Source of the DNA: Candidatus Aquabacterium excrementipullorum | Lineage (GTDB): Bacteria; Pseudomonadota; Gammaproteobacteria; Burkholderiales; Burkholderiaceae_C | Assembly: GCA_019112875.1 (NCBI GenBank) | Contig: DXIO01000086.1 | Location: 1 to 64,000 of the forward strand | Length of the DNA stretch: 64,000 bases | Direction: 5' to 3' | Notes under the pieces: generated by a model | What the model was told of the DNA's origin: nothing | Seen by the model: only the letters and a program-made list of their open reading frames with translations | The model's database searches: none | Program-made: the position numbers and the translations under genes | Shown: in pieces, positions 12,362-21,157 of the stretch | How positions within the stretch are numbered: position 1 is the first letter of the stretch | Layout: every line of letters begins with the position of its first letter

Positions 12362-12703
12362 ATGGAAGAGAAAACCGTTGTGAAGTCTTTAGCGGCTCTG
12401 GCCCAGCCGGTTCGTCTACGAGTGTTCCGAGCCCTGGTTGTCGCAGGCCCCGAGGGACTCACCCCCAGCACCGTCACCGAAGAGCTTGGAGTCCCCGCCA
12501 CCTCTCTCTCGTTCCACCTCAAGGAGCTGATGAACGCCGGGCTGGTGACTCAGGAGCGCAATGGTCGCCACCTCATCTATCGGGCCGCCTATGAGCACAT
12601 GAACGGTTTGCTTGGCTACCTGACTGAGCACTGCTGCCAAGGCAGCCCGTGCGCGACGGTTCCGGACCCCGATCAACCAGCCCGAGGCTGCACCACCTGC
12701 TGA
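12362..12703 (+). CDS. arsR: ArsR-family arsenite-responsive repressor
   Basis: The 113-residue winged-helix repressor has its HTH at about 36-60 (STVTEELGVPATSLSFHLKEL). The metal site is at the C-terminal end: C91-C92 and C97 in EHCCQGSPC, like the Cys-Cys...Cys As(III) site of the Acidithiobacillus-type ArsR and unlike the ELCVC helix site of the plasmid type. Two more cysteines lie at the very end (GCTTC). It would repress its own operon until arsenite or antimonite binds. If translation does not start at 12362, the next option is the GTG at 12380. It is the first gene of arsR-arsI-arsC-acr3. Confidence 0.92.
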   Translation: MEEKTVVKSLAALAQPVRLRVFRALVVAGPEGLTPSTVTEELGVPATSLSFHLKELMNAGLVTQERNGRHLIYRAAYEHMNGLLGYLTEHCCQGSPCATVPDPDQPARGCTTC

Positions 12704-12714
12704 AGGAGAACCCC

Positions 12715-13218
12715 ATGAAGCGCTTTCACGTTCACGTCCATGTGGATGACCTGGCCCGCAATGTCGCCTTCTATTCGGCGATGTTCGGCACTCAACCGGC
12801 TCGAGTCGAACCAGACTATGCGAAGTGGATGCTGGATGAGCCGGCGGTGAACTTCGCCATTTCCACGCGTGGCCATGGGCACCTTGGGGTGGACCACTTG
12901 GGCATCCAGGTGGACAGCGAAGACGACCTGCGCGCGATGAAGGCACAGGCTCAAGCAGCCGACATGGCGTTCATTGATGAAGGGGCCACCTCCTGCTGCT
13001 ACGCGCGCAGCGACAAGCATTGGATCGTGGATCCTCAGGGCCTGCCGTGGGAGCATTTCCGCACGCTCGGGACCATCCCTGTCTTCAGCGAAGGCGAACC
13101 CGCCCAGGGGGACACGAAGGCAGCAAAAGCGCCCCAGGCTTCGGCCTGCTGCGCACCCAAGACCACAGGCAAGCCCATTGGGATTCCTGTGAAGGCTGCC
13201 TCTACAGGTTGTTGCTGA
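12715..13218 (+). CDS. arsI: ArsI/CadI-family C-As lyase (organoarsenical demethylase)
   Basis: This 167-residue vicinal-oxygen-chelate protein carries the residues known in ArsI: H5 and H61 as metal ligands, E113 (WEHF), and the vicinal pair C94-C95 in SCCYARSD that binds trivalent arsenic. ArsI uses Fe(II) and oxygen to cleave the C-As bond of methylarsenite or trivalent aromatic arsenicals. The related CadI proteins are known as cadmium-induced. A Cys-rich tail (ACCAP, TGCC) may bind metal as well. The start is ATG 12715 behind AAGGAGA. It lies 11 bp after arsR and 8 bp before arsC, in the same operon. Confidence 0.85.
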   Translation: MKRFHVHVHVDDLARNVAFYSAMFGTQPARVEPDYAKWMLDEPAVNFAISTRGHGHLGVDHLGIQVDSEDDLRAMKAQAQAADMAFIDEGATSCCYARSDKHWIVDPQGLPWEHFRTLGTIPVFSEGEPAQGDTKAAKAPQASACCAPKTTGKPIGIPVKAASTGCC

Positions 13219-13226
13219 GGCTGGCC

Positions 13227-13730
13227 ATGACCGTCCATGTTCTGATCCTGTGCACCCACAACTCGGCCCGTAGCGTCCTGTCGGAAGGGATGCTGAACCA
13301 CTTGGCGGCCCAGCGCGGCAGTGACGTGAAAGCCCATAGCGCGGGCAGCGCCCCGAGTGGCCGCATCCATCCCTTCGCTGTCGAAGCGCTGCAAGGCGCT
13401 GGCATCGAGACAGCAGGCTATCGAAGCAAGAGTTGGGATGAATTCACAGGGCCTGATGCACCTCCCCTGTCCATCGTGATCACCGTTTGCGACAGTGCGG
13501 CAGCCGAAGCCTGCCCCGTATTCTTCGGAGGGAGCGGCCAGCCGGTCAAGGTCCACTGGGGCTACCCGGATCCATCCAATGCCGAAGGTGGCGACGATGG
13601 CAAGCGCAGGGCCTTTGAACTGACCCGCCAAGCCATCGGCTTCAAGATGCTGCAACTTCTGGCGCTGCCGCTGGAGACCATGGACCGATCCGCGCTGGCC
13701 GACGCCCTGGCCGTGATTGACAAGAGCTGA
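13227..13730 (+). CDS. arsC: Arsenate reductase, thioredoxin-coupled low-MW phosphatase type
   Basis: ArsC reduces arsenate to arsenite for export. The 167-residue product has the CX5R loop at C9-R15 (CTHNSAR). A second and third cysteine at C88 and C96 (VCDSAAAEAC) match the three-cysteine relay of the pI258-type enzyme. The VHWGYPDPS motif carries the catalytic acid. The ATG at 13227 gives a standard N terminus; the frame is open upstream, overlapping arsI, but without family similarity. It is followed by acr3 after 8 bp. Confidence 0.93.
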   Translation: MTVHVLILCTHNSARSVLSEGMLNHLAAQRGSDVKAHSAGSAPSGRIHPFAVEALQGAGIETAGYRSKSWDEFTGPDAPPLSIVITVCDSAAAEACPVFFGGSGQPVKVHWGYPDPSNAEGGDDGKRRAFELTRQAIGFKMLQLLALPLETMDRSALADALAVIDKS

Positions 13731-13738
13731 GGGGCGTC

Positions 13739-14791
13739 GTGTCGCAGCCCAAAGCTCAACCGATGAGCGTCTTTGAGCGCTATCTGACAGTCTGGGTCTT
13801 CTTGTGCATCGTGGTCGGCATCGGGCTGGGCCAACTCGCTCCCGGACCATTCCAGGCCATCGGGCGCATGGAAGTCGCCCAGGTCAATTTGCCGGTGGGA
13901 CTGCTCATCTGGGTGATGATCATCCCGATGCTCATCAAGGTGGACTTCGGGAGCCTGTCGCAGGTCAAGGGCCACTGGCGGGGCATCGGCGTGACCCTGT
14001 TCGTGAACTGGGCGGTGAAGCCCTTTTCAATGGCATTCCTGGGCTGGCTGTTCGTTCGTGAGGTCTTCGCCCCTTGGCTACCTGCGGATCAGCTTGACAG
14101 TTACATCGCCGGCCTGATCCTCCTCGCGGCGGCGCCCTGCACGGCCATGGTGTTCGTCTGGAGTCGGCTGACGAATGGACATCCCCTGTTCACACTCAGT
14201 CAAGTGGCACTGAACGACACCATCATGGTCTTCGCCTTCGCTCCCGTAGTGGGCCTGCTGCTGGGGCTGTCGTCCATCACGGTGCCATGGGGCACGCTGG
14301 TGACTTCCGTGGTGCTCTACATCGTGGTGCCGGTCATCCTGGCGCAGATCATTCGCCGGGTACTGCTGCAACGCGGGTCGGCCGCGCTTGAGGCTGCATT
14401 GGCGCGCATAGGCCCTTGGTCCATCACTGCGCTGCTTGCCACCCTGGTGCTGCTGTTCGCCTTCCAAGGGCAAGCCATCATGGATCAGCCGCTGGTGATT
14501 GCCATGCTGGCCGTGCCGATCCTCATCCAGGTGCTGTTCAATTCGGCGCTGGCCTACTGGCTCAATCGCCAGCTCGGAGAGGCGCACAACGTGGCCTGTC
14601 CATCAGCGCTCATCGGCGCGAGCAACTTCTTTGAGTTGGCCGTGGCCACTGCTGTCAGCCTCTTCGGGTTCCAGTCAGGGGCAGCGCTGGCGACTGTCGT
14701 GGGGGTCCTCATTGAGGTGCCCGTCATGCTGCTCGTCGTTCGGGTCGTCAATCAGACGAAACCTTGGTACGAGAGACCTGAAGCGCCATGA
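13739..14791 (+). CDS. acr3: ACR3-family arsenite efflux permease
   Basis: The 350-residue inner-membrane protein with about ten transmembrane helices exports arsenite. Family landmarks are VGLLIWVMIIPMLIKVDF, the substrate-site segment AAPCTAMVFVWSRLTNG with its essential cysteine, LNDTIMVFAFAP, and the conserved ASNFFELAVATAVSLFG helix. It starts at GTG 13739 (an in-frame ATG lies at 13763) and closes the arsR-arsI-arsC-acr3 operon. No arsH, arsM or arsA gene is seen. Confidence 0.94.
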   Translation: MSQPKAQPMSVFERYLTVWVFLCIVVGIGLGQLAPGPFQAIGRMEVAQVNLPVGLLIWVMIIPMLIKVDFGSLSQVKGHWRGIGVTLFVNWAVKPFSMAFLGWLFVREVFAPWLPADQLDSYIAGLILLAAAPCTAMVFVWSRLTNGHPLFTLSQVALNDTIMVFAFAPVVGLLLGLSSITVPWGTLVTSVVLYIVVPVILAQIIRRVLLQRGSAALEAALARIGPWSITALLATLVLLFAFQGQAIMDQPLVIAMLAVPILIQVLFNSALAYWLNRQLGEAHNVACPSALIGASNFFELAVATAVSLFGFQSGAALATVVGVLIEVPVMLLVVRVVNQTKPWYERPEAP

Positions 14792-15097: not shown

Positions 15098-15283
15098 ATG
15101 AGCGATGACAAGACCAAGGCCGGCGGCCAAGACCGCTCGCAAATCAATGTGAACGAGGAATACGAGTTGAGGGACTGGAGTAAAAAGTTTGGTGTGACAC
15201 CAGACGAGCTCAAGGCCGCCGTCAGCGCCGTGGGCACCAACGCGGACGCAGTGGAAGCCCATTTGAGCGACAGGAAGCGCTGA
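15098..15283 (+). CDS. DUF3606 domain protein
   Basis: The small 61-residue acidic protein has the DUF3606 pattern: INVNEEYELRDWSKKFGV (about 16-33), then TPDELKAAVSAVG, a compact helical domain of unknown function. It has a very strong ribosome-binding site (TAGGAGGT). Its stop codon lies 4 bp before the start of the exonuclease III-LigD gene, so the two are almost certainly co-transcribed and translationally coupled. That context suggests a DNA-repair or stress role, which is inference. A second DUF3606-like gene is at 21642-21854. Confidence 0.8.
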   Translation: MSDDKTKAGGQDRSQINVNEEYELRDWSKKFGVTPDELKAAVSAVGTNADAVEAHLSDRKR

Positions 15284-15287
15284 TGTC

Positions 15288-18200
15288 GTGCGAGTCGCTA
15301 CCTGGAACGTCAACAACGTCCTCAAGCGGCTCGATCAACTGCTGGCCTGGCTTGAGCGCACCGAGCCCGACGTCGTAGCGCTGCAGGAGCTCAAAGCAAC
15401 GACGGACGCCTTCCCCGTCGATGCACTGAGACAGGCCGGTTATGAGTCGATCGCCGTAGGGCAGCGCACTTGGAATGGGGTCGCGCTCTTGGCGCGTGGT
15501 CATACGCCCATTCCTGCGCTGAAAGCCCTGCCCGGGGATCCAAGCGACAAAGAGGCCCGGTACCTCGAGGCCGCGATCGATGGCGTGCTGTACGCCTGCT
15601 TGTACCTGCCCAATGGCAATCCGTGCCCAGGGCCGAAGTTCGAGTACAAGCTCGCCTGGTTCGAACGACTGCGTACGCGCGCGGAGGCACTGTGGGCGAG
15701 CGGCCAGCCGGTGGTGCTTCTGGGTGACTGGAACGTCGTTCCCACCGACGGGGACATCTACAAGCCCGACACCTGGCGCGATGATGCCTTGCTGCAGCCC
15801 GAGCCCCGCGCGGCTTTCGCCGCCATCCTTGCTCAGGGCTGGACCGACGCGTTGAAGGCAGTACCGCTGAGGACCGCGCCATTCACGTTCTGGGACTACC
15901 GCCGAAAGCGCTGGGAACGAGACGCAGGGCTTCGCATCGATCACATCCTCACGAGCGCGGCGTTGAAGGTGCTCGATGCCGGCGTCGACCGAGAAGAGCG
16001 GGGGCGCGAAAGCCCAAGCGACCATGCGCCTGCATGGGCCGAGCTGTCATTGGCCAAGGGCCCACGGCGCCGCGCGCCCAAGGCCGACGGCCCGCCATCG
16101 CCGAAGCGCAGCAAGCCTGCCGCCAAGCCCCCGTCGCCCGAGGTACTTGCGCTGTACAACGCGAAGCGTGATTTCGCGAAGACGCAGGAGCCTTCCGGCG
16201 AAGCCCCCCGGCGCAAGAAGGCAAGAGGAGAACAGCCCCTGAGCTTCGTCATCCAGAAGCACTGGGCCAGCCGCCTCCATTACGACTTCCGGCTTGAACT
16301 GAACGGCGTTCTCCTGTCCTGGGCCGTACCCAAAGGCCCCTCCTTCGATCCAGCGGTCAAGCAGATGGCCATCCAGGTCGAAGACCACCCGGTCAGCTAT
16401 GGCACCTTCGAAGGAAAGATCCCGGCCAGACAATACGGTGCCGGCGATGTCATCGTCTGGGACAACGGAACCTGGGAGCCCACCGTCGATCCGGTGGAAG
16501 GCTTGGCCAAGGGCAAGCTGATCTTCAAGCTGCATGGCCAGAAGCTGGCCGGGTTGTGGGAGCTTGTCCGCATCTCCAAGCCCGGCACCGTGAAGCAGCC
16601 CCAATGGCTCTTGCTCAAGAAGCGCGGTGATGCGTGGTGCAGGCCACAGTCCGAGTATGACGTCATCACTGCCCTGCCTGACAGCGTGCTGAAGGAACCA
16701 CTCGGGCTGATCGAAGAGCGCGAGCCCCGCGAAGCTCCGCCGTCACGTCAGCCGACCGCTCTTGAGCCTGATTTGTCTGGTGCGCGCAAGGCAAAGCTTC
16801 CCGAAACGCTTTCTCCCCAGTTGGCCACGCTGACGGCCGCCGCTCCCGCGGGCGACTGGATCGTCGAACCCAAGTGGGACGGCTACCGGATCCTGGCCCG
16901 GCTCAATGGCGACGACGTGCGGCTGCTCACGCGCAATGGCCATGACTGGACCCACAAGCTGCCAGCCTTGCATCGCGCCCTGGTCGCCATGTCGGTCAAG
17001 GGTGCCTGGCTCGACGGCGAGATCGTGGTGATGGGAGAAGACGGCGTGCCGGACTTCAACAGGCTGCAGAACGCGATGGACCGCTCGCGAAGCGACGACG
17101 TACGCTTCTATGCGTTCGACGTGCCCTTCCTGGCCGGCATGGACCTGCGTGAAGTGCCCCTGCGATCCCGGCGTGAACTGGTGCGAAAGCTGCTGGAAGA
17201 GAGCCCGCAAGACAACATCTTCTTCAGCGAGTCCTTCGACGTGCCGGCCAGTCAGTTGCTGGAGGCCGCCTGCAACATGCGGTTGGAGGGCGTCATGCTC
17301 AAGCAGTCGGATTCGCCATACGCCACCGGCAGGCGCAGCGAATCCTGGCTCAAACTCAAGTGCCAGCAGCGTCAGGAGTTCGTCGTGGTGGGCTACAGCC
17401 TGCGCAAGGGCACAGCCTCCCATGTGGGCAGCATCATGCTGGGCTATCACGCCGATGGCGAACTGAAGTACGCGGGGTCCTGCGGAACAGGGTGGGACAC
17501 GGAGATGTCCGCTGTGCTGTACGGCAAGCTTCACAAGCTCGAATCGGACACGCCCGCGGTCGATCCAGAAACGGTGAAGCCTGGACGATGGGGGCGCCGC
17601 ACCGAAGGCAAGGAGATCTGGGTCAAGCCGAAGCTCGTTGTTGAAGTGGGCTTTGCGGAATGGACACCGGACGGCAGTGTCAGGCAGGCCACCTTCAAGG
17701 GCATCCGCTCGGACAAGCCCGCCACGGCCATCTCACGGGAAGTGGCCAAGGTACCGGCCAAGCCGCAGGCAGCCTCGAAGCCGAACGTCAGCGTCAAGGT
17801 CAGCCACCCTGATCGCGTCATTGACCCGTCCACAGGGATCAAGAAGATCGAGCTGGTGCACTACTACGAGAGCATCGCGCCCTGGATCCTGCCGCACCTG
17901 AAGGACAGGCCGGTGTCACTGGTCCGGGCACCCACTGGCATCACAGGGCAACTGTTCTTCCAGAAGCACCCCGAATCCAAGATGCCCGGCCTGCGGGAGC
18001 TGGATGCTGCCTTGTGGCCAGGCCATGCGCCGTTGATGGTGGTCGACAGCGTGCAGGCGCTTCTGTCTGCCGCCCAAATGAACGTGGTCGAGTTTCACAC
18101 CTGGAACTCGGTCGCCAAGCGGATCGACACGCCTGACCGCATGGTGTTCGACCTGGACCCCGGCGAGGGCGTCGCCTGGAAAGAGGTACAGGAAGCGGCG

Positions 18201-18668
18201 GAACTGATGCGGGCCTTGCTGCTTGAGCTCGGCTTGGAGAGCTGGCTCAAGACATCGGGCGGCAAGGGGCTGCATGTCGTGGTGCCCCTGGCGCCCAAAT
18301 TGAGCTATGAGGTGGTCAAGGCTTTCTCTCAGGCCGCCGTGCAGCACATGGCCAAGACCATCCCGTCCAGGTTCGTGGCGAAGTCGGGCGGCACCAACAG
18401 GGTGGGCAAGATCTTCATCGACTACCTGCGCAACGGTCATGGCCAGACCACGGCCGCGGCGTTCTCAGCTCGGGCCAGACCTGGCATGGGGGTGTCGATT
18501 CCCGTGTCATGGGGCCAACTGGCGTCTCTCAAAAGTGGCGCGCAATGGACGATTCGCACGGCCCGCGAGTATCTGTCCTTCCAAGCCGATGACCCATGGG
18601 CTCAGTTTTGGGCCACGAGACAGACCCTCAGCAAGCCGATGAAGGCCCTGGGCTTCACATCCAAGTAA
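15288..18668 (+). CDS. ligD: Exonuclease III (XthA-type)-LigD fusion: AP endonuclease/3'-phosphoesterase/DNA ligase/polymerase
   Basis: A single open frame of 1126 residues joins four repair activities. Residues 1-255 are an exonuclease III/AP-endonuclease domain with all catalytic positions (N7, E34, D147 and N149 in GDWN, D218, D245-H246). A Lys/Pro-rich linker follows (255-315). Residues 316-475 are the LigD 3'-phosphoesterase (H325, H331, D333, H367, Y371). Residues 500-815 are the ATP-dependent ligase with nucleotidyl Lys529 in EPKWDG. Residues 835-1126 are the primase-like polymerase with D955 and D957 in FDLDPG. Usual LigD (about 840 residues in Pseudomonas) has only the last three and works with Ku in end joining. 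No ku gene is in the window. The start is GTG 15288 with AGGAAG upstream. Confidence 0.95.
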   Translation: MRVATWNVNNVLKRLDQLLAWLERTEPDVVALQELKATTDAFPVDALRQAGYESIAVGQRTWNGVALLARGHTPIPALKALPGDPSDKEARYLEAAIDGVLYACLYLPNGNPCPGPKFEYKLAWFERLRTRAEALWASGQPVVLLGDWNVVPTDGDIYKPDTWRDDALLQPEPRAAFAAILAQGWTDALKAVPLRTAPFTFWDYRRKRWERDAGLRIDHILTSAALKVLDAGVDREERGRESPSDHAPAWAELSLAKGPRRRAPKADGPPSPKRSKPAAKPPSPEVLALYNAKRDFAKTQEPSGEAPRRKKARGEQPLSFVIQKHWASRLHYDFRLELNGVLLSWAVPKGPSFDPAVKQMAIQVEDHPVSYGTFEGKIPARQYGAGDVIVWDNGTWEPTVDPVEGLAKGKLIFKLHGQKLAGLWELVRISKPGTVKQPQWLLLKKRGDAWCRPQSEYDVITALPDSVLKEPLGLIEEREPREAPPSRQPTALEPDLSGARKAKLPETLSPQLATLTAAAPAGDWIVEPKWDGYRILARLNGDDVRLLTRNGHDWTHKLPALHRALVAMSVKGAWLDGEIVVMGEDGVPDFNRLQNAMDRSRSDDVRFYAFDVPFLAGMDLREVPLRSRRELVRKLLEESPQDNIFFSESFDVPASQLLEAACNMRLEGVMLKQSDSPYATGRRSESWLKLKCQQRQEFVVVGYSLRKGTASHVGSIMLGYHADGELKYAGSCGTGWDTEMSAVLYGKLHKLESDTPAVDPETVKPGRWGRRTEGKEIWVKPKLVVEVGFAEWTPDGSVRQATFKGIRSDKPATAISREVAKVPAKPQAASKPNVSVKVSHPDRVIDPSTGIKKIELVHYYESIAPWILPHLKDRPVSLVRAPTGITGQLFFQKHPESKMPGLRELDAALWPGHAPLMVVDSVQALLSAAQMNVVEFHTWNSVAKRIDTPDRMVFDLDPGEGVAWKEVQEAAELMRALLLELGLESWLKTSGGKGLHVVVPLAPKLSYEVVKAFSQAAVQHMAKTIPSRFVAKSGGTNRVGKIFIDYLRNGHGQTTAAAFSARARPGMGVSIPVSWGQLASLKSGAQWTIRTAREYLSFQADDPWAQFWATRQTLSKPMKALGFTSK

Positions 18669-18925: not shown

Positions 18926-21157
18926 ATGACTGACACCCCTGAGAGCAGCCCCGTGGCGGATGCTTCCCGCCGCCGTTTCCTTGGCACCGCAGGCGTGACC
19001 ACCGCCGGAGCCGTCGTGGCACCGATGCTGGCCAACAGCGCCACAGCGCAGCCAGCTGCGCTCGCCCCGACGGGCAGCGCGATCACGGGCAAGGCTGAAG
19101 ATCTGGCGAGGGAAACCGCTATGGACGCAGGGCAGGCCCTCACGACCAACCAAGGCGTGAAGATCGCGGACAACCAGAACACCCTGAGGGCAGGCCTGCG
19201 TGGCCCCAGCCTTCTCGAAGACCAGCTGTTTCGCGAGAAGCTCACCTCGTTCGACCACGAACGCATCCCTGAACGCGTGGTCCATGCGCGCGGTGCCGCG
19301 GCGCACGGCGTGTTCGAATCCTACGGGTCGCAGGCCCAGCTCACCAGGGCCAGCTTTCTGGCTTCTGCTGGCAAGAAGACGCCTGTCTTCGTGCGCTTCT
19401 CGACCGTCGCCGGCTCGCGAGGCTCTGCCGACACCGCGCGCGATGTGCGCGGCTTCGCGGTCAAGTTCTACACCGATGAAGGCAACTACGACCTCGTCGG
19501 CAACAACATCCCGGTCTTCTTCATTCAAGACGCCATCAAGTTCCCTGACCTGGTCCATGCGGCCAAGCCCGAGGCAGACCGAGAGATCCCGCAGGCTTCG
19601 ACGGCCCACGACACGTTCTGGGACTTCATCTCCCTGATGCCTGAGTCCACGCACATGATCATGTGGATCATGTCGGACCGCGCCATCCCCCGCGCCTACC
19701 AGATGATGGAGGGCTTCGGTGTGCATACCTTCCGGATGATCAATGCGCAGGGCAAGAGCCGCTTCGTCAAGTTCCACTGGAAGCCATTGAAGGGCGTTCA
19801 TGGCCTGGCCTGGGACGAGGCGCAGAAGCTGGCCGGTAAGGATCCTGATTACCACCGCCGTGAACTTGCCGATGCCATCGCGGCGAAGGACTTTCCCGAG
19901 TGGGAGCTGGGGGTGCAGGTCGTCGAGGAGGCCGATGCAGGCCGCTTCGGCTTCGATCTGCTCGACGCCACCAAGCTCATCCCCGAAGAGCTCGTGCCCG
20001 TGCGCCCCATCGGCAAGATGACGCTCAACCGCAACCCCGACAACTATTTCGCGGAGACGGAACAGGTCGCATACCACACCGGCAACCTCGTTCCCGGCAT
20101 CGACATCACGGACGACCCGCTGCTGCAAGGGCGCATGTTCTCGTACGTCGACACGCAACTGACGCGGCTGGGTGGTCCCAACTTCCACGAGATCCCCATC
20201 AACCGACCCTTGTGCCCCTTCCACAACCTTCAGCGCGATGGCTTCCACCGGCAAACCATCGCCAAGGGTCGGGTGAATTACGAGCCCAGCTCGATCGACG
20301 TTCCGCCGATACAGGAAGTGCCAGTTGCCAGGGGCGGTTTCGTGTCCTACCCCGAGCAGATCTCTGGCACCAAGGTGCGCCACAGGTCTGAAACCTTTGC
20401 GGACCACTACTCTCAAGCCACGCTGTTCTGGCAAAGCCAGACCAAGCCTGAGCAACAGCACATCGTTGAAGCCTTGCAGTTCGAACTCGGCAAGGTCACG
20501 GTGCCAGCCGTGCGTCTTCGCATGCTGTCCAACCTAGTCAACGTCGACCGGGATCTTGCTGCCCGCGTCGCCGCCGTGTTGGGGGTACCTGTGCCTGCAC
20601 CCAGCTCCCGTACCGGCAACAAGCGTTACGCCGCCTCACCCGGCCTGAGCATGATCGCGCGAGGCAACCCGAAGACCATCGTCGGCCGCAAGATCGCCTT
20701 CCTGGCGACCGATGGTGTTGACGAGGCAGGGCTGCAGGCGATGAAGGCCGAATTGAACAAAGCGGGTGCGGTTGTGAAGGTACTGGCGCCTCACCTGGGC
20801 ACCCTGCGCGGTGCGGGCGGAGGTGCTGTCAAGGTGGACGACCTGATCGTCACCATGCCGTCTGTTGTGTTCGATGCCGTGTTTGTCCCTGGCGGGGCGG
20901 AAAGCGTGAAGGCGCTCAGAGCCTCGGGTGACGCGGTTCATTTCGTGCGTGAGGCGTTCAAACATTCGAAAGCGATTGCGGCATTGAGCAATGGCGGCGA
21001 CCTGCTCGGAGTTGCTGGGGTGCTCAGCCCGACGCCTGAGGGCGCAGTGGCCGGTGTAAGAACCTCAGCAGATGTCGGGGCGCTGGCGCGAGGCTTCATG
21101 GCCGACATCGCGGTTCACAGGCACTGGGAACGTCCTAAGGATGGCATGCCCGCTTAA
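18926..21157 (+). CDS. katE: Large-subunit catalase (KatE/HPII type) with Tat signal and DJ-1/PfpI-like C-terminal domain
   Basis: The 743-residue monofunctional haem catalase decomposes hydrogen peroxide. The catalytic His is at H120 (ERVVHARG), the distal Asn in [10 protein letters not shown], and the haem-ligand Tyr in RMFSYVDTQ. The clade-2 C-terminal domain starts near residue 590 ([22 protein letters not shown]). Unlike E. coli HPII, the N terminus carries a twin-arginine signal ([10 protein letters not shown], then an Ala-rich stretch to about 42), predicting export to the periplasm after folding. It stands alone after a 257-bp gap in which I see no gene. Confidence 0.93.

Follow-up and report, generated by a model that had tools for sequence, protein, structure and literature searches.

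Can an exonuclease III-type nuclease form one polypeptide with a complete bacterial end-joining ligase, and if so, what would it do there? The question is raised by a gene at positions 15288-18668 (forward strand) of a 64,000-nucleotide stretch of contig DXIO01000086.1 from Candidatus Aquabacterium excrementipullorum (hereafter the window; its genome is G000). The first-pass annotation of the window read this gene as one frame joining an endonuclease/exonuclease/phosphatase (EEP) domain of the ExoIII/XthA family to a LigD made of a 3'-phosphoesterase (PE), an ATP-dependent ligase (LIG) and a primase-polymerase (POL), in that order. Bacterial non-homologous end joining (NHEJ) is usually pictured as Ku plus LigD, with the ends processed by domains of LigD (PMC7719229, PMC1378119; papers given by PMC number are cited from parts of their text). 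The LigD layouts described in the literature consulted are PE-LIG-POL, POL-PE-LIG, LIG-POL and separate genes (PMC1378119, PMC7719229, PMC5052709). In the accessible parts of the open-licence literature we found no description of an EEP-LigD fusion; the supplementary table of PMC7719229, with 20 additional Ku/LigD domains, lies outside that search. We regard the fusion as a new and recurrent LigD variant, which may already be listed in that supplement.

A four-domain LigD

The gene is a single open frame of 1126 amino acids (aa), with a GTG start and no internal stop in its translation. Judged by its domains, the protein is a four-domain LigD composed of an EEP resembling the Neisseria meningitidis enzyme NExo, a basic linker and a complete PE-LIG-POL. 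The domains follow one another on the forward strand as EEP (aa 1-255, 15288-16052; PF03372, TIGR00633, TIGR00195), a linker rich in K, R, P and A (aa 256-285, 16053-16142), PE (aa 286-446, 16143-16625; PF13298, TIGR02777), LIG (aa 510-820, 16815-17747; PF01068, PF04679, TIGR02779) and POL (aa 830-1126, 17775-18665; PF21686, TIGR02778). Pfam placed Exo_endo_phos at residues 4-246, LigD_N at 323-428 (PF13298, 142 bits), DNA_ligase_A_M at 520-691, DNA_ligase_A_C at 710-810 and LigD_Prim-Pol at 853-1104, every one above its curated cut-off. The NCBIfam models gave the same picture: xth (TIGR00633) scored 200.8 bits against a cut-off of 99.05, TIGR00195 and the LigD models LigD_PE_dom, NHEJ_ligase_lig, ligD_pol and NHEJ_ligase_prk also exceeded their cut-offs, and NF004628 scored 1121 against 895. 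The single frame and the complete LigD in the order PE-LIG-POL were thus read correctly at first pass.

The residues expected of working enzymes are in place. The EEP combines the xth equivalog score with N7, E34, D147, N149, D218, D245 and H246, the set that marks the ExoIII/XthA family and that had been listed from the window sequence. No loss was seen in the alignment: all seven are unchanged in each of 16 Burkholderiales rows (13 intact fusions, one fusion without PE and two broken copies), and a 17th row, the decayed gene of Mycetohabitans, deviates at three of them. The LigD part has LIG, with its KxDG lysine, and POL in one chain, and a PE with conserved His, Asp and Arg. The lysine (K529) is identical in all 17 aligned rows, and H331, D333, R335 and H367 of PE, which we take to be the catalytic residues, are identical in each of the 16 rows that have this domain. 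In domain order, in the PE, LIG and POL motifs and in scores above the curated cut-offs the protein resembles the Pseudomonas-type LigD, which lacks the additional 255-aa N-terminal EEP on its flexible linker.

In nine pairs of fused genes, purifying selection acts on each of the four domains. The ratio of non-synonymous to synonymous substitution rates (dN/dS) was 0.02-0.19 for EEP, 0.05-0.23 for LIG and 0.02-0.21 for POL; PE and the linker, with values in eight pairs each, gave 0.07-0.22 and 0.10-0.64. Some pairs share genes and are not all independent, and one (L291/L292) is saturated in dS. The linker spans 13-35 aa and is rich in K, R, P and A across the 18 fused genes compared. Low dN/dS in the domains and a looser linker are what one would expect of a flexible tether between working enzymes.

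Recurrence and independent origins

The fusion recurs in other genomes. In the family we found 13 intact EEP-PE-LIG-POL genes in nine of 399 genomes, of 1122-1143 aa when measured from the start of the EEP. Genome G603 has three (L190, L191 and L192), G799 and G505 have two each, and G000, G513, G678, G615, G742 and G806 have one each. Another genome, G418, encodes an EEP-LIG-POL protein of 923 aa without PE, and G492 and G575 carry broken copies. Across the phylum, 103 of 398 genomes have an EEP of the window's kind at E-values up to 1e-70. Judged by the length of their open frames nearly all are unfused; fusions were confirmed for the frames of G000, G418 and G1046, and the long open frames of G698, G1186, G960 and G810 gave no LigD match. 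The 20 phylum-scan loci inspected are a chosen set of long frames and top rows and no sample, and G902 (508 aa) was left out. The genus of G1046, the Pseudomonas-like g302, has the full fusion in six of 149 genomes (G1046, G1216, G1244, G1315, G1270 and G1269), an EEP-LIG-POL protein without PE in G1253 and a broken copy in G1252. This genus is probably Pseudomonas, as the EEPs of records named Pseudomonas branch among those of g302. Neither PE-less protein, of G418 or G1253, has a Pfam match to LigD_N.

A stop in the linker, or two separate genes, had been a doubt at first pass. The in-frame junction between EEP and LigD is the same in 18 of 18 intact fused genes aligned, from different genomes, which makes an assembly error very unlikely. 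A search of a plasmid collection with the full protein matched 1600 records, of which 14 matched 80% or more of the query at a single place; 30 of the 1600 records were listed, and six regions inspected held no intact fusion. One of the plasmid-collection relatives, Mycetohabitans rhizoxinica B12 (L035, 4001-7531), has a frameshift that runs xth and ligD together and destroys the SDHAP motif, and is annotated as a plain ligD; strains B5 and B49 carry xth and ligD as two genes.

The two sets of fusions stand apart in both phylogenies. In the EEP tree, 16 Burkholderiales fused rows and four unfused EEPs form one group (support 100/100), and seven Pseudomonas-like fused rows form a separate group with nine unfused Pseudomonas-like EEPs (support 100/99). 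An earlier version of this tree had lost many fused rows through the collapsing of identical sequences; the tree rebuilt with them agrees with it. In the LIG-POL tree the Burkholderiales and the Pseudomonas-like fused LigDs each group with their own relatives. A single origin was tried as an alternative: an approximately unbiased (AU) test, run on a quick LIG-POL tree and not on the EEP tree, rejected a tree in which all fused LigDs form one clade (p 2.65e-99). Since the two sets are apart in both trees and one clade is rejected, the fusion arose at least twice, with the EEP placed N-terminally each time. The LIG-POL of G418 groups with plain LigDs (support 98), and a third, separate origin for it is unsupported by the AU test on that tree (p 0.18). 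The Pseudomonas-like fused LigDs as one clade were not rejected (p 0.058).

The activity of the nuclease domain

The nearest solved structure to the window EEP by sequence is NExo, a 3'-phosphatase/exonuclease of the ExoIII family (8.8e-52), followed by ExoIII (5e-36) and, further away, the NApe entry 2jc5 (1.3e-16). The AlphaFold model of the domain (mean predicted local distance difference test, pLDDT, 93.8) agrees: NExo is again the top PDB match, with a template-modelling (TM) score of 0.93, and 2jc5 reaches 0.87. NExo is a 3'-phosphatase that leaves native apurinic/apyrimidinic (AP, abasic) sites uncut, a specificity set by H167 and N108 (PMC6294502), whereas Gly or Ser occupies this gate of the pocket in known AP endonucleases (PMC3731287), with Gly198 as an example (PMC7548837). 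In HMMER alignments the window has Leu168 at the gate (codon 15789-15791) against His167 of NExo, Ser178 of ExoIII and Gly231 of APE1, and Asn109 at the place of NExo N108. The domain thus has neither the Gly or Ser of an AP endonuclease proper nor the His of NExo; it shares the Asn with NExo, and differs from it further in being joined to LigD.

The gate residue is shared by nearly all subfamily sequences compared. Among 179 EEPs taken at no less than 50% identity to that of the window (five rows fall below; near-copies are included and the set is not random), Leu occupies the gate in 178 and Asn the second position in 179, and the metal-binding and catalytic residues are kept in 178 or 179 at each position checked. 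Identical EEPs were collapsed for this census, and matches that contained stops or covered less than about 225 aa were removed. In 21 control EEPs the gate is Leu in 11, His in nine and Gly in one, and the Asn is present in 20. Because both residues are common in these controls, neither sets the fused kind apart. The window EEP also keeps the Trp that corresponds to ExoIII W212.

A bulky gate would favour 3'-end healing over abasic-site incision. The proximity to NExo, together with a Leu in place of Gly or Ser, makes the cleaning of 3' blocks the likelier activity. The proposal at first pass that the fusion couples end processing to gap filling and sealing stands as regards 3' ends; incision at abasic sites as the leading activity is made less likely by the NExo likeness and by Leu168. 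Each set of fusions holds one EEP-LIG-POL protein without PE (G418 and G1253), so the EEP may stand in for the 3'-end-healing PE of LigD.

Ku, neighbouring genes and the role in repair

The remark that no ku lies nearby is right for the window and misleading beyond it. The 4.75 Mb assembly of G000 (147 contigs) has one ku match, on contig C34, divergent from a second, plain ligD of 847 aa; both genes had been proposed as worth looking for elsewhere in the genome. Ku lies within 6 kb of eight of the 16 Burkholderiales fusion loci (six of 13 with an intact gene, plus the two with broken copies); the Ku near L190 is just 31% identical to that of G000. The order ku-DUF3606-fusion on one strand occurs in G678, in G615 and with the broken copy of G575. 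DUF3606 is a small protein, of 61 aa in the window (15098-15283, forward strand; PF12244, 80.4 bits), where its gene ends 4 nt upstream of the fusion. The same gap recurs in the ku-DUF3606-fusion locus of G678 and before an unfused EEP in G645. DUF3606 genes lie within 6 kb of 13 of the 16 Burkholderiales fusion loci (L160, L190, L191, L193, L194, L196-L202 and the window), several directly upstream, and of none of the seven Pseudomonas-like ones. G000 has four DUF3606 matches.

Some unfused relatives of this EEP are also found in NHEJ clusters. A plasmid of Rhizobium sp. TH2 has ligD, a second ligD, two ku genes and xth, and Mycetohabitans megaplasmids have xth followed by ligD. In Rhizorhabdus wittichii pSWIT01 (L207, 4028-8520) a DNA ligase D gene overlaps xth by 4 nt, next to genes for a conserved hypothetical protein and a putative topoisomerase I. 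This last cluster is on a conjugative plasmid, and a similar one in Sphingobium pSES220 (L208) is annotated with cupin and topoisomerase IB genes. In Sphingomonas BN140010 xth overlaps a ligase gene, G1270 and G1236 have clusters of ku, ligD and an unfused xth, and further cases occur in a Variovorax metagenome-assembled genome and in Mesorhizobium. Eight of 80 subfamily EEP loci (the 80 most similar among 594 relatives) have a match to Ku or a ligase within 6 kb, compared with none of 20 housekeeping xth loci.

In known LigD proteins LIG seals and POL fills gaps, and 3' blocks are frequent on ends broken by oxidative or desiccation damage. From the domains, the conserved residues, the recurrence, the selection, the partial ku linkage and the loss of PE in two proteins, we infer substrates, an order of steps, a Ku dependence and a type of damage as follows. 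The tethered EEP would strip 3'-phosphates, 3'-phosphodiester remnants or faulty 3' nucleotides off a broken duplex, and PE would take off some of the 3' blocks. POL and LIG would then receive a clean 3'-OH, which POL would extend across the gap before LIG seals it. Where Ku takes part it would hold the ends, encoded next to the fusion in several relatives and in trans in G000. We favour this reading, in which the fused EEP clears 3' ends for POL and LIG, most likely in Ku-dependent end joining after oxidative or desiccation damage, and give it a probability of roughly 55%.

A number of observations weigh against it. In the window's genus the fusion was found in one of 42 genomes, that of the window itself. 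A Methylibium plasmid LigD without EEP (L040) nests among the Burkholderiales fused LigDs, which is likely a loss of the EEP, and unfused EEPs nest inside the Burkholderiales fused group; from both placements, the EEP seems at times to have been lost or split off. The Leu gate is shared by 11 of the 21 control EEPs, and in the literature consulted on the gate, itself accessible in part, we met no activity of a Leu-gated enzyme. The contrast of eight of 80 against none of 20 loci is not significant alone (p ~0.16, calculated by hand), and seven of the 20 control genomes gave no LigD match. Finally, Ku is absent within 6 kb of all seven Pseudomonas-like fusion loci and of the window gene, and a plain second LigD adjoins Ku in G000 and G1270, so that the fused copy may act without Ku.

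These last facts would suit a one-chain enzyme for oxidised single-strand breaks, which would perform the same 3' healing mainly at single-strand gaps and breaks, independently of Ku. So would the catalase genes found after the window fusion and beside the unfused EEP of G010, and the gap repair of mycobacterial LigC and Prim-PolC with ExoIII, XthA or EndoIV (PMC5663958). We nevertheless consider such an enzyme unlikely, given the ku-DUF3606-fusion order in three genomes (one with a broken copy) and the presence of Ku near half of the Burkholderiales loci. One-chain short-patch base excision repair (BER), in which the EEP nicks 5' of the AP site and the 5'-deoxyribose phosphate (5'-dRP) lyase of LigD, POL and LIG complete the repair, has a precedent: LigD of Bacillus subtilis and Pseudomonas aeruginosa has 5'-dRP lyase activity, and BsuLigD finishes repair after AP-endonuclease incision in vitro (PMC4770248). 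The catalytic residues and the Trp of the EEP are kept, and endonuclease IV had no match in G000. Yet the gate is Leu almost throughout the subfamily, whereas Gly or Ser stands there in known AP endonucleases (PMC3731287; Gly198, PMC7548837), and in the LigC system a strong exonuclease makes ExoIII and XthA poorer fits than EndoIV (PMC5663958). Moreover, G000 encodes a separate XthA homologue with a Gly gate (contig C147) that could handle abasic-site incision, so we hold a BER role of the fusion to be rather improbable. Our label NApe-like for the C147 protein comes from its motif and from 50% identity to another protein so classed, rather than from a comparison with NApe. A further xth of G000, on contig C142, has a His gate.

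Two other explanations carry little weight. The EEP could be a non-catalytic, DNA-binding or docking domain, like Crc, which came up in the structure comparison with the same fold and has, to our knowledge, no nuclease role. The near-universal conservation of the metal-binding and catalytic residues and the low dN/dS make this very improbable. An artefact of assembly, or two genes read through by chance, might be suspected in a draft of 147 contigs, and the frameshift of Mycetohabitans B12 is an instance of such a merger, with its SDHAP motif lost. The in-frame fusion with conserved residues recurs in many separate genomes, however, and we see next to no room for an artefact.

Among known systems, one related in concept is the pairing of a nuclease that processes 3' ends or AP sites with an NHEJ-type ligase and polymerase, as proposed for spore LigD of B. 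subtilis with Nfo or ExoA in BER and as seen for mycobacterial LigC/Prim-PolC with ExoIII, XthA or EndoIV (PMC4770248, PMC5663958). There, separate proteins act in trans, whereas the fusion is one chain. A protein of Opitutus terrae and of an Antarctic metagenome likewise has an N-terminal nuclease ahead of an ATP-dependent ligase, but this is an RMMBL metallo-beta-lactamase nuclease of an unrelated family, and its ligase has DNA_ligase_A_N and neither LigD_N nor POL (PMC10140301). PolX with a PHP exonuclease was proposed to compensate for a LigD without a nuclease domain (PMC9226535); it is a separate protein of another fold. The Pseudomonas-type LigD retains the PE that is missing in one fused protein of each lineage.

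That a nuclease with a different fold is attached to LigD in two or more lineages, and in two proteins occurs without PE, amounts to a natural experiment, which suggests that 3'-end healing gains from placement in the same chain. The repeated origin of the combination suggests that joining both jobs is useful. More broadly, and tentatively, we put the odds a little short of even that end joining in Pseudomonadota has a dedicated end-processing part not yet recognised as such, the NExo-like XthA paralogue: this paralogue occurs in ku/ligD clusters of several lineages, became fused to LigD on at least two independent occasions, may be able to replace PE, and lies in frame behind Ku in Bosea-like genomes. 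The fused proteins are suited to testing whether NHEJ ligases also bring repair to completion at abasic sites or at single-strand breaks of oxidative origin.

Some neighbouring arrangements were seen in passing. In Bosea sp. Tri-44 (L153, 5140-6774) the C-terminal part of Ku continues into a subfamily EEP in the same frame, with an earlier in-frame stop in Ku. In G1340 (L346, 6713-8317) a subfamily EEP directly follows a Ku match in the same frame, with a TAG between them. In G1304 (L301, 6170-9439) a Ku match and a plain LigD match share one frame, separated by about 60 nt, with one TAA inside the LigD match. Downstream of the window fusion, a long catalase of 743 aa (18926-21157, forward strand; PF00199, PF06628, PF18011) is part of the genomic context; the catalase relative that adjoins the unfused EEP of G010 is at L046, 6559-8805. 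Just upstream, at 12362-14791, we recognised by eye an arsenic-like cluster with ArsR-like, glyoxalase-like, ArsC-like and ACR3-like candidates.

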